NCBI GenBank assembly: GCA_019022495.1
Contig: JAFEKR010000001.1
Coordinates: 3,224,001 to 3,288,000 of the forward strand
DNA from: Epichloe hybrida
Lineage: Eukaryota > Ascomycota > Sordariomycetes > Hypocreales > Clavicipitaceae
DNA length: 64,000 bases
Reading direction: 5' to 3'
Below, in pieces: positions 3,671 through 58,327 of the stretch. The first letter of the stretch is position 1. Every line of letters starts with the position of its first letter. The translations under genes were made by a program, and so were the position numbers. Below the pieces are notes generated by a model that saw only the letters and a program-made list of their open reading frames with translations, was not told the DNA's origin and did not search any database.

Positions 3671-5234
3671 ATACATATTTTGTTTCATTTTTTTTTGTCT
3701 TGTAATACGAATACCCTCAAGCTCGATTACGATTACCCAAAAGGGGTCTCGGAGACACGGCTCACGAATTTTTCTTCATTGTAATCGTATCAGCGACGGC
3801 GGCAATTGACTTTGCCAGCGGAAATGTCCCCTTCACCGTGCTTATTACGCTGCAATCGAGATCAGTGGCAGGTCGACGGTCTTGATGTTCGAATCGGCCG
3901 ACGATTCCCTCCAATGGAGATGTGCAATACTGCGTACGCACATGGTTCGAGCACTAGTAAAGAGAGGAGAATAGTGCATTGAACTGGCAGGATCTCGAAC
4001 TAAGAACGAGGCAATATACTCCATGGCATTATTTTCTATATTGATTCACTTTTTGAGAGAACGCGCGATGCCTTGTGTTGCGTTGGTGGTCATCTACTCT
4101 GTTTAATTACGAAAAAATCGATATTTTCTCCGTTATTTGTCTTTGGTTTCTTCTTCTTCTACATTGATTATGTCGTCTTCCACTTTGCGCGCGTTTGAGC
4201 TATAGTCTCGTCTTCTCATATTTTACCCGCTTTCTCAGTGTTCGTTGAGGCTTGTATGGAGGAGAATTCAGTCAATAACAGAAAGAGTGGACGACAACGG
4301 CACAGTATAGTGCGATGGTTGGAAATCAAGGCACGGGTGATGAGGCATCAGTAAAGTTAGGGTTTTTTTACTACAACCCATCTTATAAACCAAAAAAATA
4401 AGAGACACAATGGTGCAGGACAAGTGAGGTATTTAGTGACATGCTCAATACCAACGCGGATATTTAGTGGTGTGTGGAAATCTGACATCATTCATTATGC
4501 CAAGAACATATTACAAGACATATACAACATGGATGGTGGATGGTGCATGGCGGATGGTGGATCATGATCACGATCGTCATTCAAATATAGATTCTATAGA
4601 CGGAAGCTCGTTCTATACTACTTTCAAATGCCCGGCGCGGTTCCCATGTGATACTATGCACGTTCTGTCAACGTGCATCATGTGCCGAGGCCAGCGTCCG
4701 GGAGTGTGTGCACTCAACTGTCCAAGTCTCCCTTGTTTATGTCATCGAGTTGCCTGCAAATTGATTTGTATACCTGAACTGAACCAGTTATCTTTCTGGC
4801 TTGCCTTGAGCAATAGATGACGAAAGCAAATTCACGTGTCGCAGTGGCACTACATCGTGCTGTTAATCTTGCAACCAAGAAAAAAAAAAGGAAAAAAAGA
4901 AAAAGATTCCAAAGTAGGCAAGTCGGGGTGCTTTTCATCGTGTTCACCTAGGACTGCCCCCTGAAGATGCCTTCTTCTTGTCCAGCATCTACCGTCTCAG
5001 TTAGAATGGACCACGACAGGATTGGCTTGATGGTTCCCGAATTGCGACTTACTTGCTCAAGAATACTCTTCTAAACCAAATCATAAAACATCATGCCAAT
5101 TGTGGCTTTCAATCGTTGCGTCTCATCTTCCATCAATGTAAAATAGAAGCATTTGCCGCAAAACGAGGGACCTGTGTCTTGTTTGCGCCACAGATGTGCC
5201 GGTTGCACCCAGCATCGTTGCATCAACGCTGCCT
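3671..5234. other. Intergenic: 3' ends of G-alpha and the DUF3716 gene
   Basis: These 1.5 kb separate convergent genes. The sequence is moderately AT-rich, with an A-rich tract at 4880-4903 and GGATGGTG-type degenerate repeats near 4530-4565. No supported open frame or RNA gene was recognised. It presumably holds both 3' UTRs. Confidence 0.5.
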
Positions 5235-6627
5235 TCAACTTGAGGTTGCCCCAGGGGAGCCACCATCCATTGAAACGTCGCCCGTTTGACTCTGCTGGAC
5301 TACATGAGTCTGCTGCTCCCGTTGCTGCTCGGCTATGCCTTCTGGAGTTTGCAGGAACTCATCGAATTCTGCAATTCGCATGCCCAGTTCCTTAGCTGCG
5401 GCCTCGATCCTTGCAATATAGCGGTCTTTCTTCGAAAGCGCTATGGTATCTCCCATGACGCTGTTGATCATACGTCTAGTAGGATCACCCATACCCCACA
5501 AAGCAACATCTGCCTGAAAAGATGCCATCACTGAGGGCGAATTCGCTGAGAGCATGGAGGGTTGCTGAAAGTTGACCATCGGACCAGGCTGAACAGAGGG
5601 CGTCTGTGCAGTTGGAGTGAAAAGCGAAGGCTGAGGATTGTTGTTCTCTGATTTGTAGAATGGTGTTAAAATCTACATGATGAGTACGAAGAAAAGCAGG
5701 GCTAGGGACCGACGTACCATGAAACGTACACCTCGAACCACTCGCGTTGAACCAACAGTTGGTGCAACTACCGCACATTTGGCCGTCGTACACGACACAT
5801 TGGGTCCACGGCCCGTGACCTTTGTGACAGTTTTTGCATGGACGATCCGCTACCTCGCCAGTGACGTGAGCCAACAAGGCTTCGACATTGCTACGTCTCT
5901 CGATGTTGAGCTTCTGGTCACGACGGCGTTGCGCCGGCTCTCGTCGTGCAGTCTCGCCCGCCAGCTTTTTACAAAGCGTACTATCGATCTTGACGGACTG
6001 ATACATCCTCAAGACGATATCGGCTGCGGTTTGGACAGGAACTGAATGATCATTCTTTACTGACACATCGTGGTTCTCCAAAGATGAATGCGATGGGGAA
6101 GTCATATTGCCTGCGAGATGATGCTCATCTTCATCTAAGTGAAATCCTCCTCCCGTAGTGTCGAATGCATTCTGCATGGAAGAATGAAGACCAGCGATAG
6201 AAGTCGAGTCATGACCAATTCCCCCTCCACTTGTCAGATGTATGGCATTGTCCGGATGACCGTTACTACCGCTGGCTGCCAACTGGCTTACCTGTGCGGC
6301 GTCGTGATTGACGTCTGCATTAGCTTGCTGAGCAAACTGTCCCAACTGGTCTTGAGCTGTACTAGGCAATGAGGACTGGCGACCGGCGCGACGGCCGGCG
6401 TTCCCGGGCTTTGTGACTTTGCTGGCTTTGCCCCCGCGGGGCATGGCTCTCTGGCCCGTAGTTGAGCCCCAGTGGAGGGCTTGTGGTGATATGGACGACA
6501 CTGATGATAGTTCCTGCGGAAATGGATAATACGTCGTCGAGGCAGCCGGCGACAGCTGCCCAAAGCTAGCAGGGAGGCAGTTGGCGGTTTGGGTCTCGTC
6601 GCAGCGGCTGGTCCAGCGGGCGTCCAT
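5235..6627 (-). CDS. DUF3716-domain protein (cysteine-rich, putative nuclear factor)
   Basis: Two exons: 6627-5718, then 5647-5235 after a 70-bp intron (GTACGT...TCAG). Together they give 440 residues. A shorter 45-bp splice is possible but would lead into an early stop. The N-terminus is low complexity. A more conservative start is the MPRGGK methionine at 6444, which begins a basic stretch (RGGKASKVTKPGNAGRRAGR). The diagnostic block lies around residues 270-305: RPCKNCHKGHGPWTQC, then CGSCTNCWF and GSRCTFH, with at least seven cysteines in DUF3716 spacing. The C-terminus contains a helical segment (KKDRYIARIEAAAKELGMRIAEFDEFL) shown here only as its first part KKDRYIARIEAAAKELG, followed by a Q-rich tail. 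DUF3716 proteins are fungal and uncharacterised. The cysteine cluster suggests metal binding, which is inference. Confidence 0.85.
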
Positions 6628-7101
6628 TGTGGGGATCTGATTGGCCCAAAGCCCGGCTGGTGCTGGTTTGGGACAACAGAGTTGCAGTGTCTCAGTAGCA
6701 CATGCCGCCCTAAGACGACTCAGAAAAATATGTAAATAAGAAAGACAGTCTCATCAGCTCGTGGCAAGGGAACTCGTGGCATGGAGAGAGGACGAGACAA
6801 ACGAGATGAATAAATGAATCGGGTCAGAGATGTTGCATACAACGCGAGGTTGGTGCCTCAGGCGTGAGGGAAGAAAGCTCCCAATGCAGAAGCAGCAACT
6901 CACTTCTTGCTCACTTTCGCACTCAACAAGAGGAGGGGAGGGGAGGGGAGGGAGACCTCGCGTCGACAAGCACACACACCACTACACGCACACACGCGCG
7001 CGCGATGACCAGAGAAAGTTCCTTGGCAGAAACACTGTCTTTCTTTCTTTTTCAATTCTGGATAGTGCGCTCGACTCGTCACCACGGCTACGTAACCTTG
7101 A
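6628..7101. promoter_or_regulatory. DUF3716 promoter interval with G-quadruplex and CA tract
   Basis: Intergenic DNA between the DUF3716 start and the CDC123 stop. Plus strand 6935-6952 reads GGGGAGGGGAGGGGAGGG, a four-run G-quadruplex consensus with one-base loops. It is followed by a CA/CG-rich alternating tract at about 6969-7004. Both lie upstream of the minus-strand DUF3716 gene, where they could affect promoter structure. That role is inference. Confidence 0.5.
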
Positions 7102-8349
7102 TCAACGTCCAACCGGTTGGGGATCCCATATCCCAGATGCCCTACCCTCTGTGATTTCCTTCCACTGCTGTGCAAACTCTCTCAAGCCGCCCTCGCCAGC
7201 CATGCTCGCATCAACAACCTCCTTGGGCAGCTTATGAGCAGAGTATTGATGAGTACTGAAATTGAAAGCCGCAGGGTCATCCTTCTCAATAAGTCTGAGC
7301 TCTGGCAAAACATTGGGCTGGTAGTCGACCTTTGTGTCATCGTCAGTCTCTTCAGCAGCTGTTTCGTCACCGCCCATCTCTCCGACGTGGTCACTCGCAG
7401 AAGACCCAAAAAGTGGATGCTCAACCTCCGTGTCAAGTAATTCTTGCCATGAGAATAACAGTGTGTCAGTTCGCGGGGCCCAAGGGTTGATATCAATCAG
7501 GCGGATTTTACCCAGACCATCCTCAGCTACGGGGTCCTCAGGGATGTACACATCAAAGGTGAAGCATGCGTCGGGAAACGAGAGCCTCATTTTCTCGTTG
7601 AAGAAAGTATAAATCTTCTTCCACAACTGAGGCCTAAGTCCGTCCAAGAAGGAGTAGTAGTTCAAGTCCCGTTGGGTGATGCCGATGAGAGAACGTTGTT
7701 TGACGAAGCAACGGAACTCAAGTGCGACATGTGGCGTAAAAAAAGGTCGTAGGACAAGGACAGGCGCAAACGGCCGAGACGGCGGAGTTGACGTGCACCC
7801 GTCAAAAGCATGATCAAGATCATGGGAGACAAACGATGAGGATTTGAGAAGCAAGTATATGTCATTCGGTGATGTGCATTTCAGCGTGTTCTGATGTGGC
7901 GACACCCATTTGGCATCCTTGGGTGTCGACCAGTTCAACTTGGGAGCAACGGCGCCCCCAAGCTCGGCTATGACCTCTTTGATTCTGTTGTGTGTTTCTG
8001 GAAATCGTTCATTTGGAGGTAATCGAGGTGCCTCATCCTCATCATCCTCATCTGACGAGTCATCGTCCTGCCTTGCTCTGGGGTTGGCAGCTGCGCCGGA
8101 GGAATGCCATTCGGGATCAGACGACGCGACATGCCCTTCCTCTTCGGCTAGCAAGATGCCGTCTTCTTGCAGATAAGCAACAGCAGATTGAGGTAGCGAG
8201 ATGGTTCTAGACTTCAAGCAAGAACTTCGATAGTTTGGAAACCATGAGTCGTATGAGCAATTCTGGATATGGTCTTTGCTCACGGGAGGAAATACAAGGT
8301 CCCCGCCATCTTGAGGGGTTGAGTCCGGACCGGGGGGTAGATGTGGCAT
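7102..8349 (-). CDS. CDC123: Cell division cycle protein 123 (eIF2 assembly chaperone)
   Basis: A single exon of 415 residues, typical for fungal Cdc123/D123 proteins. The N-terminus has the family signature FPPVSKDHIQNCSYDSWFPNYR, given here as FPPVSKDHIQNCSYDSW, followed by a short hydrophobic segment and an acidic insert (DDDSSDEDDEDEAP, residues about 95-108). The ATP-grasp core shows PKLNWSTPKDAKW, LVLRPFFTPHVALEFRCFVK, a conserved RDLNYYSFLD and the metal-binding segment IRLIDINPWAPRTD. The family binds eIF2-gamma and promotes eIF2 heterotrimer assembly in the cytoplasm, so it is required for translation initiation and cell-cycle entry. It is divergently transcribed from CWC21 across a 352-bp shared promoter. 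Nothing is missing relative to the family. Confidence 0.95.
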   Translation of the reverse strand: MPHLPPGPDSTPQDGGDLVFPPVSKDHIQNCSYDSWFPNYRSSCLKSRTISLPQSAVAYLQEDGILLAEEEGHVASSDPEWHSSGAAANPRARQDDDSSDEDDEDEAPRLPPNERFPETHNRIKEVIAELGGAVAPKLNWSTPKDAKWVSPHQNTLKCTSPNDIYLLLKSSSFVSHDLDHAFDGCTSTPPSRPFAPVLVLRPFFTPHVALEFRCFVKQRSLIGITQRDLNYYSFLDGLRPQLWKKIYTFFNEKMRLSFPDACFTFDVYIPEDPVAEDGLGKIRLIDINPWAPRTDTLLFSWQELLDTEVEHPLFGSSASDHVGEMGGDETAAEETDDDTKVDYQPNVLPELRLIEKDDPAAFNFSTHQYSAHKLPKEVVDASMAGEGGLREFAQQWKEITEGRASGIWDPQPVGR

Positions 8350-10246: not shown

Positions 10247-13200
10247 ATGACCATGGTCCAGGGCCGTCTTATGCGGGATGAACGGGGTCTTGAGTCCGTT
10301 GCCGCTCTACCTTGTTTCGAAGGCCTTGATTTTGCGGTCCTCTCCTTAGTTCCAGCTGTTATTTTTGTCATCGCGTTTCCGTTCCGTCTGGTCCATCTCA
10401 CTAAATCTACTCGCAAAACACGCATTGGGCCGTTGCGCGTGTGCAAGTTTGTATGTGTTGAGGCTTCTTTCTATACACGCTACGCAGGCTTGAATGCTAG
10501 AATTTGCTAATCCCTGGCTTTTGCAGGCAGCCGCTATTGTCCTGCTCGTTCTGCAGGTCGTCCTGCTTCTCTTTAGGTCTCGTCTCGGCACTGATCACAC
10601 AAAGACATGGCTCCTCCCTTCAGCTACTATCAATGTCGTGGTTTCCATTCAATTGGTGGTTCTGTCTTGGGTGGAAGACGCTCGATCCATACGTCCCTCC
10701 TCCATGTTGAGCAGCTACCTCGTTGTCACCTTGATCTTGGATATTGCCGACTGTTGGATCCTGTGGCTGCGACGCATTGATGATACTAACCTTGCGATAT
10801 CTACTGCATTCATGGTCGTCAAACTGGTCATGCTGTTTCTTGAGAGCTTGAGCAAAACATGTTATCTATACGATATTGACCACCTTTCCCCCGAGGCAAC
10901 CAGCGGCTTGCTTAGCCGGAGTTTCCTTTGGTGGATGAATGGCCTCTTCCGACAAGGCCTTCGCTCTACTCTGACCCTCGACGACCTATACCCACTCGAC
11001 GAGCACCTTGCTTCTGCAGCTCTAAGTATCAACATTCAGGAGGCTTGGGCGCGCCGTCGCGAACCAATACGTCGATTCGAATTTCCCCTTGCGGCTTGGA
11101 GGGCTCTTTATTGGCACATTCTGTCTGCCGTAATTCCCCGCCTCTCTTTGATATTATTCACCTTTGCACAGCCTTTTTTGATAGCTCAGGTCTTGGGCCT
11201 GCTTACTCAATCTGACACCGATGCTAAATGTAATACCGGGTTATCACTTGTCATGGTAGCAGCATTCATCTACTCCGGAAAGGCGTTCTCGCATCTCCAT
11301 TATCGACACTGCGTCGATAGATTTATGACCATGTTTCGTGGAGCGACTGTCTCGTTGATATACAATCACATGCTCACGCTTTCACTAAGTGATTGCGACG
11401 ACTCATCTGTAATCACCTTGATGAGTACAGACGTAGACGAAATTGTACTTTGTCTTTCTGGTTTGAATGAGGTCTGGGCGCATCTTATTGAGGTTGTTTT
11501 GGGTGTCGTGCTTCTGTCTCAACAGCTCGGCTGGGTTTGCATTGTGCCTCTTGTTGTCGTTGGTGAGTACCAATGCCTCATTGTTCTATGGACAAGATAC
11601 TGTCTTGGAGAAGCTTTTGGAGACTAACGAAAAAGAAAAGCATCCTTTTTTGGGACTGCAGAGATCGCCAGGACAGTGGGTGCGCGTCGAAAGGCCTGGG
11701 TTGATGCGATTCAGCGGCGCATCAACGTTACGGCCTCGATGCTGTCCGAAATGAGGAGCGTCAAAATGATGGGTCTGAGTCAGGTTCTGTCTCGCATCGT
11801 TCAGGACCAGCGTGTCCAAGAGACTCGTAACATGTCAGGGGCCAGATGGTCCATTGTCTGGCAGAACGTTGTGCAAAATCTACCCTGGACGCTCGCTCCC
11901 GCGCTTACGTTTGCCATATATGTCAAGCAAGCGGCCAGTCGAGGGCAAACGGCTATTGATGTCACCCAGGCATTTACCAGCCTTTCGGTCATCACGCTGC
12001 TCACAGATCCCGTGGCAAAACTGCTGAGCGCAATTCCATCTACCGCTGCTAGTACAGGATGTTTTGACCGAATCCAGGATTTTCTAGACCTTTCTCCCAG
12101 GAACGATCCACGTATTGTCTCTTCGACTGTAAGAGCTCAGCCCGTAATGCGAAATGATGACTATGCTATTCATGCTCGGGGATTGCTGCTCCGTCCTGCT
12201 CCCGCAGCCGACCCAATCGCTACTGATGTCAACTTCGCCGTCTCACGAGGGTCACTCGTCATGGTTGTTGGCCCCGTTGGGTCTGGCAAGACAACACTGC
12301 TCAAGGCGATACTAGGCGAGGCCGCAAAAGAAGATGGCTCATCACTGACGGTCGCAAGCGTTCCTATTGCCTACTGCGCGCAGGTTCCCTGGCTTCCAAA
12401 CTCCAGCATTCGTCAAACTATCTCTGGTCATGTGGAAGACGGTTCAGGTCTGGACGAAAGGTGGTATAAGCAATGCTTGCAAGCTTGTGCGCTGGATCAT
12501 GATTTGACCTGTCTACCCGACGGGGACGGGACTTTGGTCGGGAGCGCAAGCACCGTACTCAGCGGCGGCCAAAGAGCGCGGCTAGCCTTGGCTCGTGCCA
12601 TTTATTCTCGCGCTGACATCATACTACTTGATGACATACTGGGAGCTTTGGATACAAAAACACAAGCGACCATCATGTCGCGCTTGTTTGGGGAGGCAGG
12701 AATACTCAGAAAACTTCAAACAACCGTTGTGCTTGTCACACATGCACGTCAGTCTTCCCAGACACATATGACGGCCCACTTCGTCGACGCTGACTAGTTT
12801 CTGAGTAGCGGGTTACCTGAAATATGCTGATAAGACTCTCATAATCGCTAATGGAGGAGTTGAAGAACGTGGTAGAGGCGAAGAAGCTTTGAGTGACGAG
12901 TTCATACAAGTTCTGCACCTCGGGGAAAGGCCCAAGCCGGAGTCTGAGAACCTGGAGCAAGGGCGTGATCTAGCCGCCAGAGCAGATCTCGTTTCAGAAA
13001 CAAACGAGAAAAACGACTTGAATGATTCAAGGGGCGACTTGGGCGTTTACCTTTACTATTTCAAATATGTTGGCTGGCTGAACATGGCACTATTTGTGTC
13101 GTTCGTCCTCATCGACGTCTTCTGCAGCAGCTTCACCAGTAAGTCGCTAACCATCTCTCTTAACGCTGCAGGCCAGCTGTAACTGACCGCCGAAAGGCAT

Positions 13201-15186
13201 CTGGCTCAAGTGGTGGGCCGAGATTCACGGAGGCCAGATTGCTCTTTATATGACTGTATATATTTGCCTGGCGGTGTTGACCTCCATTGGTACGTTTGGA
13301 TACGTCTGGTAAGGGAAAAGCGCTTCCTCCGGTTTGTTCATTGAAGAAAATGACATGGAACTAACGAAATCTCCAAGGGCAATGCTTATCCTCATTTCTC
13401 CGAGTACTGCTCGTCAGTTGCATGAAGTCCTTCTCAGAGTTGTTATGAGGCAAGTTGAACCCGCATCTAGACATGGCATACGTTAACGGCGTTTCAGGGC
13501 GCCACAAGCTTTCTTCTCCTCCACGGACAGTGGCTCTATCTTGAACCGGTTTAGCCAGGACATGACAATCATTGAATCGCAGCTGCCCACCGGCCTACTC
13601 ATCGTCATATCGAGTATGTAATGGTCACGCAGTCACGATCGAAGCAAAGCACAGGAACCTGACACAAGTGATAGATTTGTTCTCGTCCATGGCCGCAGCA
13701 GCATTGGTCGCGACAGGCTCTGCCTTTATGCTTGCGAGTGTCCCCTTTCTGATCATTGTAATCTGGGCGCTACAGCATGTTTATCTCCGCACCTCGAGAC
13801 AATTGCGAGTGCTGGACCTTGAGGGTAGAAGCCCGCTCTTCACTCATTTCTTGGAAACCTCCAATGGCCTCGCCTCAATCAGAGCTTTTGGGTGGCAATC
13901 AAGGTTCAGAGCCAAGAACGAGCGGCTCGTCGACCAATCTCAGCAACCTCAGTATCTGTTGTACTGCGGCGAGAGATGGCTCAATCTGGTACTGGACCTT
14001 ATAGCTGGTGCGCAAGCTGTCCTAGTGGTAGGCCTCGCCATTGGGCTTCGGCGTTTCACCAGCCCAGGACTCCTAGGTGTCTCGCTGAACAGTGTTCTGT
14101 GTAAGCGGGAACTGGATGCTTTGAAATAATCATTTGCCATTCAGCTCACTGACATCAAACCAATTAGCCTTCAGCGCCCATCTATCGTCTCTCGTATCGG
14201 GCTGGACGATGCTTGAGACCTCGCTCGGAGCGATATCAAGATTGAAAGCTTTCGAGGCCACGGTGAAACCTGAAGACAAAAGTACGGAGACATACCGGCC
14301 GCCTTCAAGCTGGCCTTCACGCGGCGCAATCGAGTTTCACAACGTCACATCCATTCATAGGTACGTCAGCGTGAATCATTATCAATCGGAGCCAATCCAG
14401 TTCATACTGACAGCTGCGGTTGCAGAGCGAATGTCGTTGGCATACGCAACATCAGTTTACAAGCCAAACCGGGACAGAGAATTGGCATTTGCGGCCGCAC
14501 AGGAAGGCAAGCTCAATTCAATCATTGCAAAAGGGGGGCTTTGACACTGACTGACAGATGACAACTTCAGCGGTAAGAGTTCGTTGGTGGCTACGATCGT
14601 TAGGCTTCTGGAGATGGACGAAGGCAAAATCATAATTGACCATGTTGACATTGCCACAGTACCGCGCGAGACACTCCGTCAGCGCTTGGTTAGTCTTCCA
14701 CAAGATGCACTAATCCTGGCAGGTAGTGTAAAGCTCAATGTTGATCCAGAAGGCCAATGTACAGATGAAGCTGTATCAGCCGCTCTGGACCGCGTTGGAC
14801 TTGGAGACTTGACCCAGTCACGCGGAATAATGGCCGACGTCACGGCCACTTCGCTGTCTCGGGGTCAACAGCAACAACTTGCTCTGGCGCGGGCGCTACT
14901 AAAAAGACAGGTTTCTGGAAGCACGATTCTGCTCCTGGACGAGGCAACGAGCAATTTGGATGCCAACACAGATGAAGTGTTGCAGCGCATTTTGCGTGAC
15001 GAATTTGCAGAGTGCACAAGAATTACGGTGGCGCATCGCATCGACACCATAATGGACTCGGACATGATAATTGTGATGGACTCGGGCCATATTGTGGAAG
15101 TCGGTCCACCAGGGGACCTGATGGATAGGAAGAGCGGATGGTTCGCCGAGCTGGCGAGGGCCAAGGGTCCAGGTGTTTCAGACTGA
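10247..15186 (+). CDS. ABCC-type (MRP-like) full-length ABC transporter
   Basis: Eleven exons in phase: 10247-10450, 10527-11562, 11662-12747, 12809-13138, 13197-13308, 13378-13449, 13498-13613, 13675-14100, 14168-14360, 14426-14506 and 14571-15186. They encode 1423 residues. The order is TMD0, TMD1, NBD1, TMD2, NBD2. Entry to TMD1 carries the fungal ABCC block LSPEATSGLLSRSFLWWMN. NBD1 has Walker A GPVGSGKTT (about 617), signature LSGGQ (about 713) and Walker B IILLDD, with Asp in place of the catalytic Glu. NBD2 has Walker A GRTGSGKSS (about 1213-1221), a divergent signature LSRGQ (about 1313), Walker B ILLLDEATSNLD and H-loop VAHR. One degenerate and one canonical site is normal for ABCC. 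Introns 6 and 10 use GC donors, and intron 10 splits Walker A. The substrate is unknown. Its position beside the RiPP precursor suggests export or self-protection. The start is less certain than the rest. Confidence 0.9.
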
Positions 15187-16423
15187 AGCGAAACTCGTGG
15201 GCTGTGCTGTCGTTGCTTGGTACCATCTTTTGTTGGAAGAAACTTGGTAGATGCGTTTCCGACAGGAAAAGTAACGATGAGATCAAGCAGTAGGGAAAGG
15301 GCGACGTGTGCAGCAGCGTGGACAGTGATCTGGTTTTTCGTATCATGTACGGGTACAACTTCCACCACGTCGCCTCGCACGATTTTGAATCTTTCCAAAC
15401 CCTGCAGGATCGAAAGCAGCTCTCGTGTGGACCAGCCGCCTGCAAAGGTTTTGCTGCTTACGCATATTCAGATGACGCATCATCATATGTCCAGGTGTCT
15501 GACGATCAGGGACAAGGAGAATGTTAGTCACTTGCAGTCCACCAAGTTGAGAGTGAGACTTTGCCGTTTGCCCTCACCAATGTGGCTATCAAAATGAACG
15601 ACGGCCACGTCCTCGGACGTAACCCATGCCCCCAATGCATACGACTCTACTACTTCTGTCACGGAAAGATGAGGCTGGCGAGACCTTTTGCAAACAGGTC
15701 TACGGATACAAGCATACCGCTCTTTCGAACTGCTGTTACAGACCTGGACGCCGGCCCCCAAAGGCGAAGGTGTCACAAGGCATATAAAGTATAAAGGGAT
15801 ACTTGATGCACAAATTAGTGACCGGTTGGCTGCGCCTCTTTTTTTTCGTGTAACAGAAGGCAGTCCCACGGATTTAGATGATAGTATTCACATCCCGCGT
15901 CAATTTCCGAGTTAGTGGAGGCCGGGGATGGGGAGTGGTGATAAAATAATGAGCAACTTTGCAGTTTGGCCATCACATCTAGCTTTGTGATGTATTGGCG
16001 ACGAAACTAGGCACCGCCGGGGAGGTGAGGTGGTCGGCCGAAGATTCGGCAGCATCGATTCTCAGGTAAAAGGAACGTTTTGTTCGTACTTGAAGCTTTA
16101 TTTGTGTACAATGGACAAATCACAATGGAATTTATTTGTAAAAGGTGGGCAATTACGCCGACATACGAGCTGCTGGCACTAGTCTTCATCATTCGCTTCA
16201 GTAAAATTGACTGAAACTCTCGATTTATTGTCACACCGACACGCTGTTCTGTAACGATGGTATGAGTGAATAGATAGCTAACGCTTCTGTTGAAGAGCAT
16301 TTCCACCAGCGCGGCTTCTTGCCGTCTTGTGCCCTCGAAGGATTGTATCAAGGACAGATGGCAGACTGTTCGGCACAAGTCCAGATTCTGTTGAAGAATC
16401 GGAGCTGGTTTATAATGTGCCAT
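15187..16423. other. Intergenic between transporter and RiPP precursor, possible gene relic
   Basis: Convergent 3' regions of the transporter and the precursor. One plus-strand frame (15306-15794) reads like protein but is interrupted by an in-frame TAG at 15525-15527, continuing in the same frame for 88 further codons. I do not recognise it. No other supported gene is seen. Confidence 0.4.
15306..15794 (+). pseudogene. Possible interrupted small-protein frame
   Basis: A frame opens at 15306 and stops at 15527 (TAG), then continues in the same frame to 15794. The part before the stop contains LSCGPAACKGFAAYAYSDD, and the part after it FALTNVAIKMNDGHVLG. Both look less random than their surroundings and resemble a compact cysteine-containing domain. 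There is no signal peptide or usable intron that would remove the stop. I recognise no family. It could be a degraded secreted-protein gene or chance. Confidence 0.25.
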
Positions 16424-16763
16424 TTAAAGGTACGACTGGTGACTGTCTGGCTCCGCCGAGGAGCGCTCCTTGAGGTAAGACTGGTGACTATCCGGCTCGT
16501 CAATAGAACGCTCCTTGAGGTAAGACTGGTGGCCATCCGGCTCGTCAATAGAACGCTCCTTGAGGTAAGACTGGTGGCTATCCGGCTCGTCAATAGAACG
16601 CTCTTTGAGGTAAGACTGGTGACTATCCGGCTCAACGAGGGCATCAGCAGCAGCAACTGCAACACATTAGTTAGGTTTCCACCATGCCATGGTGAGACAA
16701 ACTTTTTGCTGGGGCGGCTAATGCCAAGGCTGGGAGAAGAAAGAAGACGTTTGAGAGACGCAT
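16424..16763 (-). CDS. Candidate RiPP (dikaritin-type) precursor with five tandem core repeats
   Basis: Exon 1 is 16763-16703 and exon 2 is 16656-16424, separated by a 46-bp intron (GTTTGT donor, CTAACTAAT branch region, TTGCAG acceptor). The spliced product is 97 residues. Residues 1-18 form a typical fungal signal peptide (MRLSNVFFLLPALALAAP). After a short leader come five units: EPDSHQSYL, then four 15-residue repeats of the form KERSIDEPD(S/G)HQSYL, the last with SSA for SID and its Leu directly before the stop. At DNA level the repeat unit is 45 bp. The architecture of signal peptide plus identical Tyr-containing cores is that of ustiloxin, phomopsin and asperipin precursors. The neighbouring UstYa genes support this. 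Oddly, the repeats are separated by KER rather than a clear dibasic KR Kex2 site. Splice phase fits only this hydrophilic frame; the unspliced frame encodes hydrophobic nonsense. Confidence 0.82.
16428..16650 (-). repeat. 45-bp tandem repeat encoding the RiPP cores
   Basis: About 4.7 copies of a 45-bp unit (plus-strand landmark GACTGGTGACTATCCGGCTC). Inner copies differ by one to three bases; the outer edges diverge more. The unit length is a multiple of three, so copy number can change without breaking the frame. High identity suggests unequal crossing-over or slippage keeps the copies alike. Confidence 0.92.
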
Positions 16764-17668: not shown

Positions 17669-18677
17669 TTACTCACGAAGCTCAGGGTGGAAGTTTGGAT
17701 GTTTGATGAGAGATTCATCAAACCCGTTGAAGAAATGAGCCCAAGCCCACTCCTCGATGGCCTCCCAGTTGGCGCACTCATGCACGACACGAAAGTTGGG
17801 CCACGGTTTGTGAAAATTGGGAATCCAGTCAAATGTCAACAACGACACGTCAGCGTTGCACATGATGTATTGTCGCAAACTTTCAAGACAGTGATCTGTC
17901 CCGCGCCATCAGCAGCTGAAAACCCGTCTCAATTTCGTTTCATGCTTTCAAAAGTCCTTGAAAGGCTTTGAGCTCACCAATGTGCTGACCAAGATTCTTT
18001 TCTCTGGTCATGTTATAGTAATCTTGATGTAAATATCTCCGTACGTATCTCTTGAAAGACCGTCAGCAATTCCAACAAGTGAAAAGCATGAAAGCAACTA
18101 ACAAGGCAGTGAAGCTGATGATAGACATCCAAACCTGCCATGTAACCAGATCCGTCTCGTAGCGGAACAGATGTCCGATTGATCCGTTCCAGAGTGGCCT
18201 TGCTGACCCGAACAGATGAAGGGCCTAGAAGCTTGTCCCAAGCCTCGTCAAGCTCCGACCTTGGAGGCCCTTTGAAGGGGCTAGTTGACTCAAGAGCGTT
18301 TTCTATCAAGTGCGGCTCCCACCTCAGCGCCTCTAAAGCTGGGCCTACGTCACAATATTTCGTCAGCCTTCCATTCAAACACTGTTCAAGTAGTTGTAGG
18401 ACATCTCTGTCGACTTACTATAGGCATTAACCTCGGGTTTTCGAACATTAGCAACAGAGCAGCCTCTGTAGTCCCAAACAGCGAAGAACAAGGTCGTATA
18501 AGTTGCTGCAAGAATCAAGTGGAATATCAGGGACAGTGGACTTAACAAGCACCAGCGTGTCTTGTTTTGTTGAAAGGGAGAGGGGGAAAGCTTTTCGTTT
18601 GACGATATCTTGGCCGAACTCCTAAATTGCGTCAGGAGTGTTTCTGAATCTGACGTTATGTCAAACGAATGAGGCAT
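17669..18677 (-). CDS. UstYa-family (DUF3328) oxidase, paralogue 1
   Basis: Four exons, minus strand: 18677-18419, 18344-18103, 18050-17978 and 17895-17669. All phases match, giving 266 residues. A cytosolic N-terminus is followed by one membrane helix (about residues 44-66). The lumenal domain has YSPALEALRWE, then the two hallmark HxxHC motifs, YHQLHC (His at 162) and HIDHC (190-194). Next comes LRQYIMCNADVSLLTFDW and a C-terminal HECANWEAIEEWA block. The paired HxxHC motifs are thought to bind copper. Characterised UstYa proteins carry out oxidative cyclisation or hydroxylation of peptide cores (ustiloxin, asperipin, cyclochlorotine pathways). Intron 2 falls directly after the first HxxHC motif, as in paralogue 3. 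The gene shares orientation with the precursor and is the nearest enzyme to it. Its exact reaction cannot be read from sequence. Confidence 0.92.
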
Positions 18678-19319: not shown

Positions 19320-20342
19320 ATGGGTTCCTGGAACTTGAGGCGTGTCTTTACAGACAGACTCAGCCAGACGCCACCGGGATTCTCGCGGGTGAAATGCCAC
19401 GATCTTGATCAAGAATCTTCGCTTTTGCCGCCGAGAGACTCCTCTTTCCTGGGCCTGAATACTCTCAAATTATCATTTCTTGCCCTCTTTTATGCCTTGT
19501 TCACTTCTGCTTTGACCTGCTTCGCAATATGGCGCTTCGGCTTTGATTGCAATCCCGCTTCAAGGGCGCAAGACGACCGTCTTCTGAAGACGCCAATACC
19601 GGACTGTAGGATGCTTCACAAGACGGCAATAAACTGTAAAGCGAGACTGACGATCAACGCATAGTTCCAAAAGAAATTCGAATGTTTGAAAGAAACTCCA
19701 CATTCATGGATCCGCCCACGGCCGAGAACAACGAGGCATGGAACAGTCTTCTACCGGTGAGTAAGAAGAACCGAAGACTGATTTATCTTGCCTCTGGTTG
19801 GATTGGATTTCAATCACTAAGATCAAGTAAAAGTCTGGTAGAGGCTTTATTTTTGTCAAAGATGGAGCAAAATATGGCCTTGAGCCAGGCTTAGACACTG
19901 GTAGAGGTGAAATTTATTCCGTCTCTTTGTACCATCAGATTCATTGCCTAGGCCTGGTCCGCAAGAACTATTGGCGCTTAGTAAATGGGGTCATGAGTGG
20001 TGATGATGCAGAGATGACGGAATTTGCACACAGTGAGTTAAGCGGCTCACACACTGCGCATTGTTTCGATTATTTCAGACAGAGCTTCGAATGCTCAGCC
20101 GACATGTCACTTGAATGGGCCAAGCCAGGATCCAAGCAGGTAGACGGCGTGGGTATTCCTCACGTCTGTACAAGCAAGGTTTGTCTTTCCCAGACTCCCC
20201 CTGAAACTCTGAGAGGTCCACGAATTGAGCGTCGCCAATCTAGCGGGCTGTCAAAGAATACATGGACAAGTATCAGTTTGATGGCGCTCGTAACCACGAT
20301 ATCGCGGCTCGAAGCTTGACGGCTGCTAATGGAGAGATTTGA
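19320..20342 (+). CDS. UstYa-family (DUF3328) oxidase, paralogue 2
   Basis: Four exons: 19320-19605, 19665-19756, 19834-20178 and 20244-20342. They encode 273 residues, and all splice phases agree. One membrane helix (about residues 45-70, LSFLALFYALFTSALTCFAI) precedes a lumenal domain with ENNEAWNSLLPSGRGFIFV, motif 1 YHQIHC (His160) and motif 2 HTAHC (199-203). These are followed by FDYFRQSFECSADMSLEW, the variant that reads HCxDYxRQ...CxADxxLEW in the family. The C-terminus includes HVCTSKRAVKEYMDKYQF. Expected role: copper-dependent oxidation of the ribosomal peptide in the secretory pathway. The first donor (GTAGGA) is weak but is needed for phase. The last exon was chosen to recover the conserved HVC...AVKEY end. 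It is divergent from paralogue 1. Confidence 0.9.
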
Positions 20343-20616: not shown

Positions 20617-21403
20617 TTAAAGTAGTGGGATACAGGTCGGGAAACGCACTGCCACTTGGTGCAATCCTTCTTCATCGCCTTCAGTGTCTTGGAACAGTGT
20701 TTCACACTCCATGAGCCCATTTCTCTCCGTGGTGTAGCCGTCGAGGGCTGTCTCGCTCTTGACAGCTCTGTGCAACTTTCTCCAAGCAAAAATACAACGA
20801 TTCCGGAGATACGACTTGCGGACAAAGAGCGAAGAGTGACGACCTTGCATCACGTTTGCCAATGATATGGGTCCAACTGCTCCAGCCTCGGTCCAAAACT
20901 GCCCCTTCTCCAACTCCAGAAATTCCCTAGTGAGGTCAAAATCGTGGCATTCTTGAGGAAGCCAAGCGATCGAAACGGGATCAAACATGCACCCCCTGAA
21001 CCTCGCCGTGACAGAATCACTGCCGCAGGCACCAGAGGAACTTGCAGTGTTTGGTGACAGCGATCCGATAGAGACGCGATACAGATCGTACGCTGCAGAG
21101 AGGGCCAAAATGAAAAGCAACAAGGTCATAACCTGCAAGAGTTTTCGAGAAACGCCCGATGGAGCACGTCGATCTGGAGCGTCTGCTTGACGGTCCAACT
21201 CGCCATGTTTGTCAAGCAACGGAAACGTCTTCTCCTCCTGCGCCAAGAGGCCAGCATTGCCAACGTCTACACTGGATCTTGAACTTCCTAGCCCCGACGG
21301 CTCCTCAAGACGGACTATGTGATGAAAAAGATTAGAGGACGGATAGGGAAAGAAGAGAAATGCAATACGGTTGATACTAACCATAGCTAGTTCTGGAATT
21401 CAT
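20617..21403 (-). CDS. UstYa-related membrane protein (RGCxFD family) with degenerate HxxHC sites
   Basis: Exon 1 is 21403-21382 (MNSRTSY plus one base) and exon 2 is 21314-20617. The 67-bp intron has a CTAAT branch. The product is 239 residues. There is a single membrane helix (LLQVMTLLLFILALSAAY). The lumenal part carries the family signature CGSDSVTARFRGCMFDPVSI, then W-P-ECHDFDLTREFLELEKGQFW, read here only to ECHDFDLTREF, and CIFAWRKLHRAV. Relatives of this type have YHxxHC before the W-K-LHRA block and HxxHC after it. Here those positions read SYLRNRC and ERNGLMEC, so the histidines of both motifs are gone while the cysteines stay. The frame is otherwise intact. It may be a non-catalytic partner or a decaying gene. 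The family assignment comes from motif memory, not a search. Confidence 0.75.
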
Positions 21404-21801: not shown

Positions 21802-22409
21802 ATGTTTTCAAGCATCAAATCAGATTCCGGCCTAGTTGCTGCAATAGCATTCCTCTTCATCGTGACCGTGTCACTCGAGGCTATAGCACACACTGGTCTT
21901 CTCTCATGGCCCTCTGATGATCTGGAATACACAGAGTCGCAAACCACGGCAAACAACGCTTCACGACTTGACTGCGGCTCAACACCCGACGAGGCACGAA
22001 GTCTGGGGTGCTTCTTCGACCAGCTCAGCTTTGCATGGCAAGTTCCAGAATGCTACGACGAAGAAACCATGACAGAATTTCTAGCCGCGAGCGAATGGCA
22101 GTACTTTGACGACGAGGCCGGCACGACGAGGCCGGCACGACGAGGGTATCGAGCCAAGTAGTTGCTCGAGGCGAGCGATCCGTTCACGTCACGTCCCAAT
22201 TTCACGCCACACACTGTTTATTTCTGCGCCGGCAAATGGTCAGGGTGTTTGAGAACGGACGGCCCATAGACAGTCATCTCTGGGCGTACAAGCACACGGT
22301 GCATTGTGGTCAAGTCTTGACCAACGCCACCTGGATGGGTGGATATTTGCACACGAGGGCTCCCATCATTTATCCCGAGTGCAGGACATTGAAGGACTGG
22401 AATTCCTGA
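21802..22409 (+). pseudogene. UstYa-related (RGCxFD family) gene broken by a 14-bp duplication
   Basis: The frame from ATG 21802 has a membrane helix (GLVAAIAFLFIVTVSLEAIA) and the signature CGSTPDEARSLGCFFDQLSF, W-VPECYDEETMTEF, then ends at a stop at 22159-22161. Immediately before this, the 14-mer GAGGCCGGCACGAC occurs twice in tandem, which shifts the frame. The following frame, to a stop at 22407-22409, still carries both HxxHC motifs (FHATHC and KHTVHC) and YPECRTLKDW. The two halves therefore belong to one ancestral gene and the lesion looks recent. There is no splice site that would remove exactly one copy. A real 14-bp allele, an assembly error, or strain polymorphism are all possible. 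Unlike its neighbour on the minus strand, this copy keeps its putative metal ligands. Confidence 0.8.
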
Positions 22410-23255: not shown

Positions 23256-24206
23256 ATGGACGGGTGCGATAGCCAGAGCAGTGAAACGGCCATGAGTGCG
23301 AGCCTTGGTTCCGAGTCCGTCTCCCAGCAAGAGAAAGATGGTCTTTTGGGTCAGGAATCCATGAATCGACATGATGGATTAGCAAGGGCCCGACGGGGAT
23401 GGGAATGCCCCTACGCTGTTTTCCTCTCAATTTTGACCATTTCGCATGTTATTCTCATTGCGTTGTTAGTCCAACTTGTTCAAAGTCGACATGCGACGCA
23501 TCGTCAACAAGGGCTGCCCATTTCACTCGGGGGATTTCCTCTGAACGAGCCTTCTCCAAGCTGGCTTCCTCCAGAGACGTGGCGAACTGAGATATTCCAC
23601 CGCAAGCCCATCTATGGCCTCGAACCAAACGATGCAGCGCGAGAGGCGTGGCGCGCTTTAATTCCCAGTAGGTAACTCAAGGATCGAAACTTCTGCTTTA
23701 CTTTCGTTGGTACCCAGCTATTCACATTCTCTCAACACAGAGGGCAAAGGATTCGTAATGGTGAAGAACGAAACCTGGCTTCCCAACCTTCCGGGCCTCA
23801 GCCATCCCAACATGAAAGCAGAGCAGCAACAACAAGCCTGCGTTGCCGTCTTCCACCAGTTACACTGTCTGGTTTGTACTCGGACAACTTCTTGATGCTC
23901 TCTCTGCTACTTCTTCTGTGCTAATATACGTGTCTGCATACTTAGTACATGACATACACGGCTTATTGGGAGGCGCGAGCCGGAAAGATTGACGAGACAC
24001 CGCCCGAGCATCTGGTACACTGCTGGGACTACCTACGGCAGAGCATCATGTGCGCCGGCGATACTACGTTGGAATGGGTTTCTGAATATAGCCATCCCCC
24101 CAACGCGACAAATGGCTGGGGCTTCCAGCACACTTGTAAGAACTTTGATGCGATATACGATTGGACAGAGCAACATCGGTCGAAAGAGGATGTGGGAATT
24201 GCCTAG
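23256..24206 (+). CDS. UstYa-family (DUF3328) oxidase, paralogue 3
   Basis: Three exons: 23256-23667, 23741-23871 and 23946-24206. They encode 267 residues in phase. The N-terminus is cytosolic, followed by a membrane helix (YAVFLSILTISHVILIALLV, about residues 50-69). Then come NDAAREAWRALIPKGKGFV, motif 1 FHQLHC (His at 176) and motif 2 HLVHC (203-207). The latter is followed by WDYLRQSIMCAGDTTLEW and the C-terminal GWGFQHTCKNFDAIYDW. It is a textbook DUF3328 protein and, with paralogue 2, belongs to the DTTLEW/DMSLEW type. Paralogue 1 is of the DVSLLTFDW type, so two subtypes are present. Intron 2 directly follows the first HxxHC motif. It sits at the right edge of the putative RiPP cluster. 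Confidence 0.93.
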
Positions 24207-28936: not shown

Positions 28937-30360
28937 TACCCCCCTAGGGGACCTTATTTAAGGTTCCTTGTAATAAATCTAAATTAATTAAATTAGTTAA
29001 ATTAATCTTATAATATCTAAATTAATTCTATAGTATAAAAAAGTAGTTAATTAGTTATAATCCTATTTAATTTAAGGTTATTATATAATACTTATTCTTT
29101 AGGTTCTTTACTAAGTATACTAGAGGGTAGTTATATAAGCCTTAATACCTTATAAAAGCTTATAAAAGTATTTCTTATAAGAGGCTTTATAAGGCTATTT
29201 ATAATTATCTCTTTAGTAGTAATCTAGGTAATATTAAAGGTTCCTTTTATAATCTCTTAATAAAGCTAGTAGTAATAAATATTTATATACTAAAGCTTTA
29301 TAATAAGCTTAATAAATTTTTCCTTAAGAAGGTAAATTATTTATATATTATTATATTTAATTTTAAGTGTGTTATCTTCTAGGTATAGCCTAACCTTTTA
29401 ATATAATTATCTAAAAGCTATAAGCTCTTTACTATAATAAGAAAGCACTAAGAGCTTTACTTTAGTTAATAAAGTTATTATAGTAGCTTACTTACTTACC
29501 TTAAAGAGTATAGGTTCTCTAAAAAGCTTTATAATATAGCCTTATAAGCTTTTTTATATTATAGTATTATTAGTAAAGGAGGCATTACTATATACCTCTA
29601 ATTTAGAGTTATTACTACTATACTTAATTACTAGGTTTACTTATATATACTTATACTTAAGGGCTTTTTTAGCTACTTCTATATACTATAGCCCTAGGTT
29701 TTATAAGAATTATAAGAGTTATAAGGCTATAAAAGTAATATTAGGTCTTAAGACTATTATTAGATATAGTAAGGTTTTAATTAAAGATTAATACCTCTTA
29801 AGATCTTAAGTACTAACCTCTCCTTTAAAAGATTCTAGTAGTATAGTAGTTATTAAGGCTATAGGCCTTTATTAAGGGATTTTTATATTAAATTTAGTAG
29901 TAGCTTTATTCTAATAGGACTTCTAATTAAGCTATACCTTCCTATTAGTATAATCTCTAATAATTTTAATACCTAGGAACTATTATAGCTCTCTAAGGTC
30001 CTTTATGTTATACTTTATAAAGAGTCTTACCTTAAATTTATTATATAAATATAATTTCCCTTTAGTAAAGAGGGTAATAAGGTTATTTACATAGAAGAAG
30101 ATAATTAACCTATCCTTAATAAACATATAAATATCTTTAAAGATTTATATAAAGCCTTTACTAATTAGCTAGCTAATTAGCTTCTTTATTTATAGAAGAG
30201 GCGCTCTTTATAGCCTATAGACTACTCTAAGAAGCTTTAGATAGGCTTGTTTATCTTTATAGCCTAGAGGTATCTTATAGTAAACCTCTTTATTAAGGTC
30301 TAAATTTAGGAATGCTATAATAAAGTTATACTAGTGTGCTTTAAGATTAAAGTAATATAT

Positions 30361-30637
30361 TGATTTTTAATTTTTTTTGGGGTCATTGGCTGTGGCCAAT
30401 GCATCTAATTTTCAAGGAACTAAAGAAATTACTAGCAATACCTAGCTAGTGCCACATGTAACAACCAAATTTAATAATCACTATAGTGTTAGGTAAAACA
30501 TTAAGAAATAAGCTTTAAGCCACAAATTTAGGGGCTGAAAAGTTAATATAAAGTTTGTGACAAACTTTATGGCTGCGATTGCGCAAGATATAGTCATAAT
30601 TCGCGACCGCAGTCAAACTCAAATCCATTCGAGTTTT
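30361..30637 (-). mobile_element. SINE-like insertion with 15-bp target duplication
   Basis: A 277-bp segment of normal base composition sits inside the AT-rich outer copia element. It is flanked by a perfect 15-bp direct repeat ATTAAAGTAATATAT (30346-30360 and 30638-30652). The plus strand starts TGATTTTTAATTTTTTTTGG, so on the minus strand the insert ends in an A-rich tail. Long duplication plus A tail is the signature of target-primed reverse transcription (SINE or truncated LINE). It shows no RIP, so it is younger than the RIP of its host. No tRNA A/B boxes were clearly identified. Confidence 0.7.
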
Positions 30638-32973
30638 ATTAAAGTAATATATAATAGCTATAAATAGCCTAAAAGTGTTAGTAGCTAGGGTTATTACCTA
30701 AGTTAATAAATAACTCTTTAGTTAATGATTTCTAAGAATATAGAGATAAGCTTTGTATTGTAGGAGGTAACCTTGCTTATCTAATTTGTATAAGAAGACC
30801 TAAGTAAGGCCTAGAAGCTTTATATATAAAGGGACTTTAGTTCTAGATACTTTCTTAGTTACCTTTCTATTAATAATTCTATTAAATTCTTTATCTTATG
30901 CTTTACGAAATTCTTTTTCTTTTAGATGACTAGCTAAATAATTATAATAAGCTAGGGGAGGAGGAAGCCTAGATATATAAGGCTTTTCTTTACTCTTAGG
31001 TCCTAGCTTAAAGGCTGTAGCAAATGCTTTAAGATTATTGTAATCTTCTAGATTTGCTAATATTTCATAATTATTACTGCTATTAGGTAGGTTAAGCAAA
31101 TTATTAATACTTAATAGTATGTGATTCGCTAAATCTAGGAATTTCCCTAGTAAATTTGGAGGAGTTAGTAGATTTGTTTCTTAACTTTCTTTTTCCTTTT
31201 CTTCGTGATTTTATTAATCGTGACTAGTAGGAGTTTCTACCTGTTAAAGCTAATTAAGTGGTTATTATAGCAATAGAGGGTACGCTATCTATGGAAGCCC
31301 TATATTAGAGCTTTTATCCTTATTATCCTTAACTAGCTCTTTAAGGTATTATTTTTTAACCTCTTTTATAGTTAATAATAGGCCTCTTTCTTAAGCATAG
31401 AAGATAGACTTATTAAAGGTAATGTGGCTTAATAAGAACTAGTAGCTTCTCTTTATTATTAGTACCTAAATCAGGTATTACATGGAGGAAACGTATCTAG
31501 CGAGGTATCTAATGTGAGCTCTCTAAGCGAGCTTTAGACTTGCCTTACGAAGCTTACTTTACGTTATTACGAATACTTTATATCTAAAAGCTTATAGGTA
31601 AGTTATTAAAGCTTCTAGCTCTTCTAGTAAGTAACTCTATTAAAGCTTATTATCTCTTAACTATTTATTTAGTGCTTATTAAGGTGATTGCTAGTTAAGT
31701 AGCTTTTAAGGCGTTCGATTTAATATATAAATAGCTACTTTAGTAGCTACGGGCTAAAGGTCTTCTAGGAAGCCTGATTGTGTTATGAGAGTTATTATAA
31801 CCCTTATTATCACCCCCCTAGACTATTTAGCGTGCCTATTTTAATATAGGTGAGCTAGGCTAGACTTCCTAATAATAATACCTCTATTTATAACCTTTTC
31901 TTCCTGTCTTTTAGTCTAGAAGGTAGTCTTACTATTAGTTATTATAACCGCAATGTAAATGCCGTACACTCTTACGTACATAGCTTCTAACTAATTAAAG
32001 CAAAGCGCGATATTAGTCTTTAATAGGATTATGAAGATATAATATAGTTCTATTACTTTATAGGTAAAAAAAGCAATGTATTAGTCTTTATTATACCCTA
32101 ATAATTAAGTAAAGAGGTTAAAAGAGACTACCTTAAGTAGTCCTAAAGGTAGGGATCCTATCTAAGGGACTCATAATATTTACCTTTATGCTTTAGAGGT
32201 TTAGTAAACCTTATATTTACTTATACTTCTCTCCTTTAATTAAATTTAAAGCTTCTAAAGCACCTAATCTATTACATCCTCCCCTAGATATGCTAATCTA
32301 GCGTGCTATAGGTCTATAGGCGTTATTATAGCTGTTTTTAGGTCTTGCAAATCTCCCTTAATAACAAAAGCTTCTAATAGGCTTAAGCCATCTATACATA
32401 GCTACGTACTAATAACCTAAGTTTAAAATATCTCTTAATTACCTCTTACTAAGTCTATTACCCTTCTAGTAAGATTATCTTACCTTAGTCCCTTTTATAT
32501 AAGTAGCTAAAGAGATATAAGGTTTATAAAGAATATTAGCTAGTACTAGGCGTTTAATAAGGTAAGGGTCTAGCTGTCTATTAAGATAATCTAAGCTATG
32601 CTAATGCTATAAGCGTCTATAACACTATAACCTGCTTAAATTCTAGGCTGCTTACTATAATTAAGGTCTATAAACTAGCGTTTATTATTAAAGATATAGA
32701 TTAAGGTTCCGCTGTTAAGTATAACTCGCGATTTACCCTAGGTAAGGAAAGCCTCTGTAAACTCTCCTATAGTAGTAAACATAGTATTGTTTTCTTTAGG
32801 TTTCTTTATGCTATTATTCTTTAACCAAGCGTTATATACCCTTTTTATATTATTAGGTTAATAATTTATTACTTCTTTTGCCTTCTTTAATAGCTCTTTA
32901 TTAATCTTCCAGTCTTTTATTAGGCAGAGAGCCTTGTAGACCTTCTATAAGTCTTTTAACTTCTTTACCTTAT

Positions 32974-38900: not shown

Positions 38901-39751
38901 TAGGTTAGTATAGATAAGGGTTTTTCCTTTATTAAGGTATTTATTGCTATCTCCTGTTTTAATGCCTTCTATAGCATTATTATAGCTATTAGTCTCACTA
39001 GGAACTCTAAATTAACTAGAGGTCCTAGATGTTTTAGCTGTATCTAATATTCTAATTAATTAAGGGAGGTAGATCTTATAATATAAGGAGAAAAGGGGTA
39101 TAACTATAATTATGTAATGTGTTTTAAATATAAAAGATCATAAGGTAAGGCAGTTAACTTTAAATATGTAATAGAATATATAATAAAGAAAGATAAGGGG
39201 ATAGCTTAGCTACTAGTATTAAACCTTTCTTTATTATTTTAGAGTCTATATAGATATAGATATTAATACTAAAGTAAGAAGAGAGCTATATTATACCTTT
39301 CTATTAGTATAACTTATTATTAAACATAGCCCTCCTATTATATAAAGCAAGTTATTGTTAGATAAGCTACCTTTTCTAATTAACCTTGCTAATCTACGGT
39401 GTTCGAAGACTACGTAGTTATTTGTGAAGGTAACTACTAATTAGTGTTAGATTTATAGGGTATTAAATTTAATATAATACAGTCGTAAGCCTAAAGAATA
39501 GTATTATCATTAATTATCTATTCTAGGCTACGTTATCTATTATTATGATTAATTAAGTTATAGGAAAAGAGAGGTAAAAAGCTAGAAGTTATAATATATA
39601 AAGGGAAAAGGGGTTACGCGTTTGTATCCTTATATTTCCTAGCTAATTAACATGCTAGGTTATAGGTCACGTGTGGGGTCCGCGCGTAGCCTAAGCTTCT
39701 GCTGGGTAATTGCGGCTGCGACGCGCGATTGATATCACCTTTGTTCTAACA
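32974..39751 (-). mobile_element. Nested copia element 1 (RIP-degraded)
   Basis: Two 307-bp LTRs (32974-33280 and 39445-39751), both TG...CA, are flanked by the duplication CTTAT (32969-32973 and 39752-39756). The total length is 6.78 kb. A purine tract on the minus strand adjoins the left LTR, so the element is oriented on the minus strand. The internal DNA is AT-rich with stops in every frame; similarity to the interior of element 2 and of the deleted element at 61-64 kb places it in the same copia group. It is inserted in the outer copia element. Confidence 0.87.
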
Positions 39752-42407: not shown

Positions 42408-42953
42408 TTGTCGGGGCAAAACAACCACCCCAAAACAACGGAAAAGAGGGATCTGACGATAATGATGATGCCGATGAAGATGACGAAAATGACGATATTG
42501 ACGGTATTGACGAATTCAACGATATCAGAAATTGAACCTAGATATCGGGATCTAGGTCTGCGATATTTGCGATCCATCGCGAGGATCTAAGCTGCGAAGT
42601 CTCTTGCCAATATCAGGTCATCTTATCAATCCAATATCAGCCGAAGCTATCAAATATCAGCCGAAGCTATCAAATATCAGCCGAAGCAAAAAGGGTATAA
42701 TCTCAATTGAACAATCCAAGCCAAAAGGCTACGAAGGGAGAGTTGATTTTCTATCAAAAGGGAGGGAATCTAGGGTTTTTATCTAGCTAGGGGGTCAGGG
42801 GCTAGGCCGGATCCAATGTGGTTGAATTGATCCGACAATCCGATAGATCCGAGGTTGAAGGGGCTAGAGGTCTTGTGAGAGAGGTCTCAAGGGATCCGAT
42901 AGATCCGAGGTCTTGTGAGAGAGGTCTCTAGGGGTCATATTCCTAGCCACACA
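42408..42953. mobile_element. RIP-free 546-bp insertion of unknown class
   Basis: A segment of ordinary base composition lies inside RIP-degraded element 2. It is flanked by the 5-bp duplication ATATT (42403-42407 and 42954-42958). It begins TTGTCGGGGCAAAACAACC and ends CCTAGCCACACA. It contains three tandem copies of a 21-bp AATATCAGCCGAAGCTATC-type unit near 42646-42687, and two copies of a 41-bp block with GATCCGATAGATCCGAGG near 42840-42928. No coding capacity is evident. The 5-bp duplication and TG/CA-like ends suggest a solo LTR or a small non-autonomous LTR element. Confidence 0.6.
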
Positions 42954-48836: not shown

Positions 48837-49088
48837 TATTAGACTATAAAGCTAGGGTTTAATATAACTACCTTTATTAAGTTATCTAACCCTATAAGAG
48901 GGTGTGGACTATAGCTTAAATACCTAAGTACCTTTACTATAGGTGGGGTGCTAATATAGTGCTAAAACATACTATGTGGTTATAAAGATTATAGAAAATG
49001 ACTAGCTAGGGGTGGACTCTTATCTCAGCTAGTTGAGTAGCGAGACTATCGTGCGGCAGGGATCAATTATGCCCTTGTGGGTGCAACA
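48837..49088 (-). repeat. LTR of outer copia element (right, 5' in coding sense)
   Basis: Partner of 28685-28936. It retains more G and C (ends GGGTGCAACA) and is followed by the ATAAT target duplication. Confidence 0.88.
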
Positions 49089-58126: not shown

Positions 58127-58327
58127 TCTCGCTCTTGAGCAGCACTTTTATTGAACCAGACCTTCCGTGCAATGTTTGCGGTGCTTGGATTCAAGGCGCC
58201 TTTGCGGTTCTTGATACATATATATCTTAAGAGCCGCATATTCTGACTCAAGTACTCGTGCGTCGATCTCCTAGCCTAGGTTTTCTGTCGTTTGGTGGCA
58301 TACTTATGGGCGTCCAACGCTACATTA

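Follow-up and report, generated by a model that had tools for sequence, protein, structure and literature searches.

An EPDxHQSYL repeat precursor beside UstYa genes in an Epichloe genome: a candidate dikaritin-like RiPP locus

The closest described systems are the dikaritins, the epichloecyclins and the Kex2-processed repeat proteins (KEPs). The dikaritins (ustiloxins, phomopsins, asperipin-2a) have been delimited in more than one way. A passage of PMC12048977 quotes from Ding et al. a five-gene definition that includes a tyrosinase and a methyltransferase, and a definition quoted in the same text takes DUF3328 as defining the class; working clusters, according to that passage, can be short of some genes of the five-gene set. 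The epichloecyclins of Epichloe come from GigA, which is described in an excerpt of PMC7317419 as having imperfect 27-residue repeats and a four-gene cluster that includes kexB. KEPs were screened for as at least three tandem repeats of at least 8 aa lying between KR, KK, RK or RR sites, and tyrosine was found in the repeats of 65.6% of KEPs with DUF3328 neighbours versus 38.2% of those without (passages of PMC7329392).

The locus described here lies in the window, the whole stretch of 64,000 nucleotides that was analysed (C1:3224001-3288000, from an assembly of 79.9 Mb in 156 contigs), and a second copy of it lies on contig C113. Like the dikaritins it has a leader and a multi-core precursor adjoining DUF3328/UstYa genes with a double HxxHC, a tyrosine in every core and a transporter nearby. 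It differs from them in its core, EPDxHQSYL, and in its linkers, which carry KER (4/4 in the window, 4/6 on C113) and not a dibasic site. It also has a motif-less UstYa-like partner, Y3, and no tyrosinase, methyltransferase or peptidase domain was found among the 25 ORFs scanned out of 63 listed with at least 90 aa; exons and the remaining ORFs may hide some. By the DUF3328-based definition, in the form quoted in PMC12048977, the locus is dikaritin-like as judged from its sequence: UstYa enzymes with two HxxHC motifs (Y1, Y2 and Y5) accompany repeated cores, five units in one copy and seven in the other.

With the epichloecyclins the locus shares an Epichloe repeat precursor, a leader and UstYa-type genes. 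It departs from GigA in its 15-residue repeats, in its five UstYa-type genes and in the kexin, for which no domain match was found near the window or on C113; the nearest is on C1, about 1 Mb away. No GigA-like repeat ORF was recognised around the kexin-domain matches, just low-complexity or weakly repetitive frames, so GigA supplies no positive control here. The likeness to KEPs lies in the leader and the near-identical short repeats. The window precursor, however, has no dibasic site, and the C113 precursor has two KKR only.

The precursor gene and its second copy

The precursor gene occupies 16763..16424 on the minus strand and encodes a 97-residue protein. Its parts are as follows.

16703..16763, minus strand: exon 1, 61 bp; ATG, leader MRLSNVFFLLPALALAAPAK and the first base of the next codon
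16657..16702, minus strand: intron, 46 bp, GT-AG; GTTTGT...CCTAACTAATG...CAG, with CTAAC
16424..16656, minus strand: exon 2, 233 bp; five EPD(S/G)HQSYL units, linkers KERSID/KERSSA, TAA right after the last SYL

The protein begins with MRLSNVFFLLPALALAAPAKIAAADALV, continues with four 15-residue units of the form EPD(S/G)HQSYL-KERSID/KERSSA and ends with a fifth core, EPDSHQSYL, directly before the stop. Core position 4 is S in four of the five units and G in one. The initial annotation had proposed this model (minus strand, 61-bp exon 1, 46-bp intron, 97 residues, five units), and splice reconstruction bore it out, including the agreement of the splice signals (GT...CTAAC...CAG) with a TAA placed immediately behind the final SYL. 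It had also pointed to repeats open in two wrong frames, and one other minus frame and one plus frame were indeed found open. No ATG lies in the exon-2 frame between the upstream stop and the repeats, so the gene requires a spliced first exon. Tandem Repeats Finder reports the repeats as a 45-bp array of 4.6 copies at 16428-16633. The N-terminus of the leader is hydrophobic, with a best 9-residue mean of 2.58 by Kyte-Doolittle hydropathy alone.

A protein search with the precursor returned no relative at E<=1 (1 candidate), the precursor being either unannotated or absent in that database, which does contain Y2 relatives at 94% and 84%. Pfam and NCBIfam gave sub-threshold matches only for both precursors, for example to YpzI and thiovarsolin, and these were taken as chance matches.

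The second copy, at C113:3002501-3039904, aligns collinearly with window positions 5107-28598, the blocks being 81.7-93.7% identical. A D123 gene and a TLC/LAG1 gene are among the common blocks, and the LAG1 region has two strong copies genome-wide, those of the window and C113. C113 in addition holds stretches without a window counterpart, the longest of about 11 kb. The Y2 protein of C113 is 98.9% identical to C2857_004661 of E. festucae Fl1, versus 93.8% for the window copy. The host genome is that of an Epichloe. The collinear blocks, the two LAG1 copies and the Y2 identities together suggest that it is probably an interspecific hybrid in which C113 would derive from a festucae-like parent; a segmental duplication is a possible alternative source of the two copies.

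Several other features of these regions were recorded. Blocks of about 23-39% GC per kb lie at 29001-49000 and 58001-64000 of the window, with about 42-58% elsewhere; AT-rich blocks of this kind are typical of Epichloe genomes. A 271-bp tandem repeat (4.3 copies, 44792-45972) lies within an AT-rich block, and short tandem repeats are densely nested at 53658-55420. On C113 the interval of about 11 kb between Y5 and LAG1, missing from the window, contains PIF1-helicase-like ORFs (L013, about 5080-7870), which were named by reading the ORFs themselves.

The homologous precursor on C113 consists of MRFLNVFILLPALALAAPTKSAATDALV followed by seven units, mostly EPDRHQSYL. The start matches that of the window gene, as do a 61-nt exon 1 (90.2% identical) and an intron of 46 nt that begins with GT and ends with AG (93.5% identical). 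Across the 12 units of the two precursors, five in the window and seven on C113, no change occurs at E1, P2, D3, Q6, S7 or Y8. H5 and L9 each stand in 11 units and are both replaced in the remaining one, the first C113 unit, EPDGLQSYF. At position 4 the units have S, G or R, with R in most C113 units. All ten linkers have the K, the R and the S, with E between the K and the R in eight of them and K in two, both on C113, whose six linkers thus comprise four KER and two KKR.

Pairwise pN/pS over the 12 units, which is descriptive only, the units of one array not being independent, is 0.119 for the core, 0.043 for the core without position 4 and 0.474 for the linkers. In a frame control on the 10 full units (the two terminal units excluded, stop codons skipped) these descriptive values were 0.32 for the EPDxHQSYL frame, 1.23 (no stops) and 1.25 (stops in 5/10) for the other forward frames, and 0.47 and 1.84 (stops in 10/10 each) and 1.05 (no stops) for the reverse frames. 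Outside codon 4, the variable core columns are third positions in six of eight cases. Between window and C113 the leader differs by 7.2 nonsynonymous changes over about 61 sites and 1.8 synonymous changes over about 23, and so shows no amino-acid constraint. This apparent absence of constraint counts against reading the gene as a RiPP precursor.

The UstYa genes and other neighbours

The precursor is flanked by an ABC transporter, arginase-family remnants and five UstYa-type genes, and the UstYa genes adjoin the precursor in both copies of the region.

10494..15186, plus strand: putative multi-exon ABC transporter gene; PF00005 in two ORFs and PF00664 in one
14865..15887, minus strand: arginase-family gene remnants; PF00491 at 14865-15467
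17669..18677, minus strand: UstYa gene Y1, 4 exons, HQLHC and HIDHC; PF11807 192.2 bits; dN/dS to C113 0.14
19320..20342, plus strand: UstYa gene Y2, 4 exons, HQIHC and HTAHC; PF11807 92.1 bits; dN/dS to C113 0.33
20619..21384, minus strand: Y3, protein of a UstYa-like sister family, containing a hydrophobic stretch; start codon and first intron placed tentatively
21802..22409, plus strand: Y4, a relative of Y3; its C113 copy is open, with HATHC and HTVHC, its window copy frameshifted
23256..24206, plus strand: UstYa gene Y5, 3 exons, HQLHC and HLVHC; PF11807 99.5 bits; dN/dS to C113 0.32

The models of Y1, Y2 and Y5 were spliced manually and are supported by the PF11807 score after splicing and by matching splice sites on C113. 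CctR, a DUF3328 protein, is described in part of PMC12435403 as a binuclear copper enzyme that requires HxxHC(x)nHxxHC. Both HxxHC motifs are kept in all 16 aligned relatives of Y2 (of 28 found). A sequence search of the PDB with one Y2 homolog gave no chain at E<=1. The locus numbers of the Y2 and Y3 relatives follow directly on each other both in Conoideocrella luteorostrata (QQS21_012737/012738) and in Purpureocillium takamizusanense (JDV02_008951/008952).

Y3 and Y4 form a second, paired type. Neither has a Pfam match, and they match each other by hhalign with a probability of 98% and E 1.9e-13. In profile comparison with the UstYa-family alignment Y3 gave no match, and Y4 gave a weak one (probability 1%, E 0.052) in which its HxxHC motifs were aligned with those of UstYa. 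The HATHC...HTVHC of C113 Y4 aligns with YLRNRC...GLMEC of window Y3. HxxHC is absent from window Y3 and its six aligned database relatives. C113 Y3, read from its open frame and standing outside that alignment, has LRNHC...ELMEC, with one histidine of the first motif and no complete HxxHC. The absence of the motif therefore looks conserved and not like fresh decay. In the window Y4 has a frameshift that a short tandem duplication at 22109-22145 has caused.

The boundaries of the cluster were set by position. The ABC transporter would, from its position only, belong to the cluster, and it is a possible exporter. The arginase-family gene has a fuller homeolog on C113 (within L012:1393-3464, PF00491 at L012:1783-2148), and blocks present there are missing from the window alignment; the window gene is probably not functional. 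No other repeat precursor was found in the cluster among ORFs of at least 40 aa with a 5-residue word occurring at least three times. Elsewhere in the genome two more UstYa gene clusters, apparently copies of each other, lie in L014-L017 (C101:108001-127000 and C68:728001-747000); their repeat ORFs were low-complexity frames only, and no secreted repeat precursor was recognised there.

Proposed pathway and alternative readings

The earlier reading of the gene as a RiPP precursor gains from the conserved second copy, from a reduction of amino-acid change that is specific to the frame of the core and from neighbouring UstYa (DUF3328) genes in which the HxxHC motifs are complete. That reading had passed over the KER that joins the units in place of a dibasic Kex2 site, the second copy in the genome with its R at most core positions 4 and its two KKR sites, the frameshift of Y4, and the missing complete HxxHC of Y3 in all aligned relatives. 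The locus is likely to be of a dikaritin-like RiPP type but to have a core that is new, and its precursor would be cut, trimmed and oxidised by UstYa proteins. A cyclic product and a new family are plausible.

In the proposed sequence of events the precursor would enter the secretory route, and a protease of kexin type, or one specific for monobasic sites, would cut its K-(E/K)-R linkers; a yapsin-like protease is an alternative. A passage of PMC2515848 mentions processing at Kex2 sites whose P2 residue is a different one, and reports that acidic residues are enriched at P1', P2' and P4' where cleavage occurs. If the window linkers were cut after KER, E would stand at P4' in all four, while P1' would be S and P2' either I or S. 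The product would then be trimmed towards the EPDxHQSYL core. SYL would be the C-terminus of the core on two counts: the final unit stops at it, and a core from which the basic residues had been trimmed after KKR would stop at it too. Alternatively, removal of the terminal arginine alone would leave products ending in KE, not L. The membrane-bound copper-type UstYa/DUF3328 enzymes (Y1, Y2 and Y5, with Y3/Y4 as the second, paired type) would oxidise the core, most likely with the invariant tyrosine as the site of the crosslink; export of the product may be aided by the ABC transporter.

A more specific version, less likely than not, is that of a new family of Epichloe cyclic peptides: processing would be monobasic, at K-x-R, and not by dibasic Kex2 cleavage alone, and oxidation would be paired, the UstYa enzymes acting together with a couple of the Y3/Y4 type in which one member retains both copper-type HxxHC motifs and the other, without them in all its known relatives, is a scaffold or regulatory half.

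Among the alternatives the most serious, though unlikely, is that the window locus is a relic and that the pathway runs from the festucae-like C113 copy, the window precursor having lost KKR (to KER) as well as Y4. The frameshift of Y4 in the window only, the more reduced arginase-family gene, and the absence of KR from the window precursor against two KKR on C113 would all fit such a history. KER is not confined to the window copy, however, as it also stands in four of the six C113 linkers; the window Y1, Y2 and Y5 are open as spliced, with dN/dS of 0.14-0.33, and the window cores are free of stops and vary at position 4 only.

The gene could also encode a secreted repeat protein that yields linear signalling peptides, as KEPs do, with the UstYa genes acting on another substrate. 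In passages of PMC7329392, 6120 of 7878 KEPs are without DUF3328 neighbours, so that a repeat protein of this kind has ample precedent. This reading is nevertheless improbable here, where UstYa genes with dN/dS of 0.14-0.33 sit beside the precursor in both copies, tyrosine is present in all 12 units and the search described above found no other repeat precursor in the cluster. That the array is a non-coding minisatellite open by accident, as its 45-bp tandem structure and its three open frames might suggest, is hardly credible given that among the stop-free frames only that of EPDxHQSYL has reduced amino-acid change, that the variable core columns outside codon 4 fall largely at third positions, and that the intron and the start are kept in both copies.

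Implications for Epichloe and for repeat-precursor mining

Epichloe endophytes protect grasses. The locus read here as dikaritin-like adds a further repeat-type precursor to the genus, and its core sequences give exact masses to seek in apoplast metabolomes. The [M+H]+ values computed are 1075.4691 for EPDSHQSYL (1073.4534 at -2H and 1071.4378 at -4H), 1045.4585 for EPDGHQSYL (1043.4429 at -2H) and 1144.5382 for EPDRHQSYL (1142.5225 at -2H). The characterised Epichloe RiPPs come from gigA, and another candidate cluster, for a 56-residue proline-rich peptide, has been proposed (PMC8982410, in part). The core and linker strings and partial forms of neighbouring locus tags were absent from the full texts that were searched, a set that lies outside supplements and most subscription journals. 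From these literature searches and those of the protein database, a cyclic peptide from an EPDxHQSYL precursor has probably not been described before.

The related UstYa-type genes extend to Conoideocrella and Purpureocillium, the former being a scale-insect pathogen according to a passage of PMC12352038. In the Y3/Y4 pair nature provides a contrast from which to learn how copper enzymes of the UstYa type may act in pairs. Because the window precursor lacks a dibasic site, a screen by the published KEP criterion would pass it over; precursors with KER linkers escape that filter, which is a blind spot. If a K-x-R-processed family is real, such precursors would be invisible to KEP mining, and more may await discovery.
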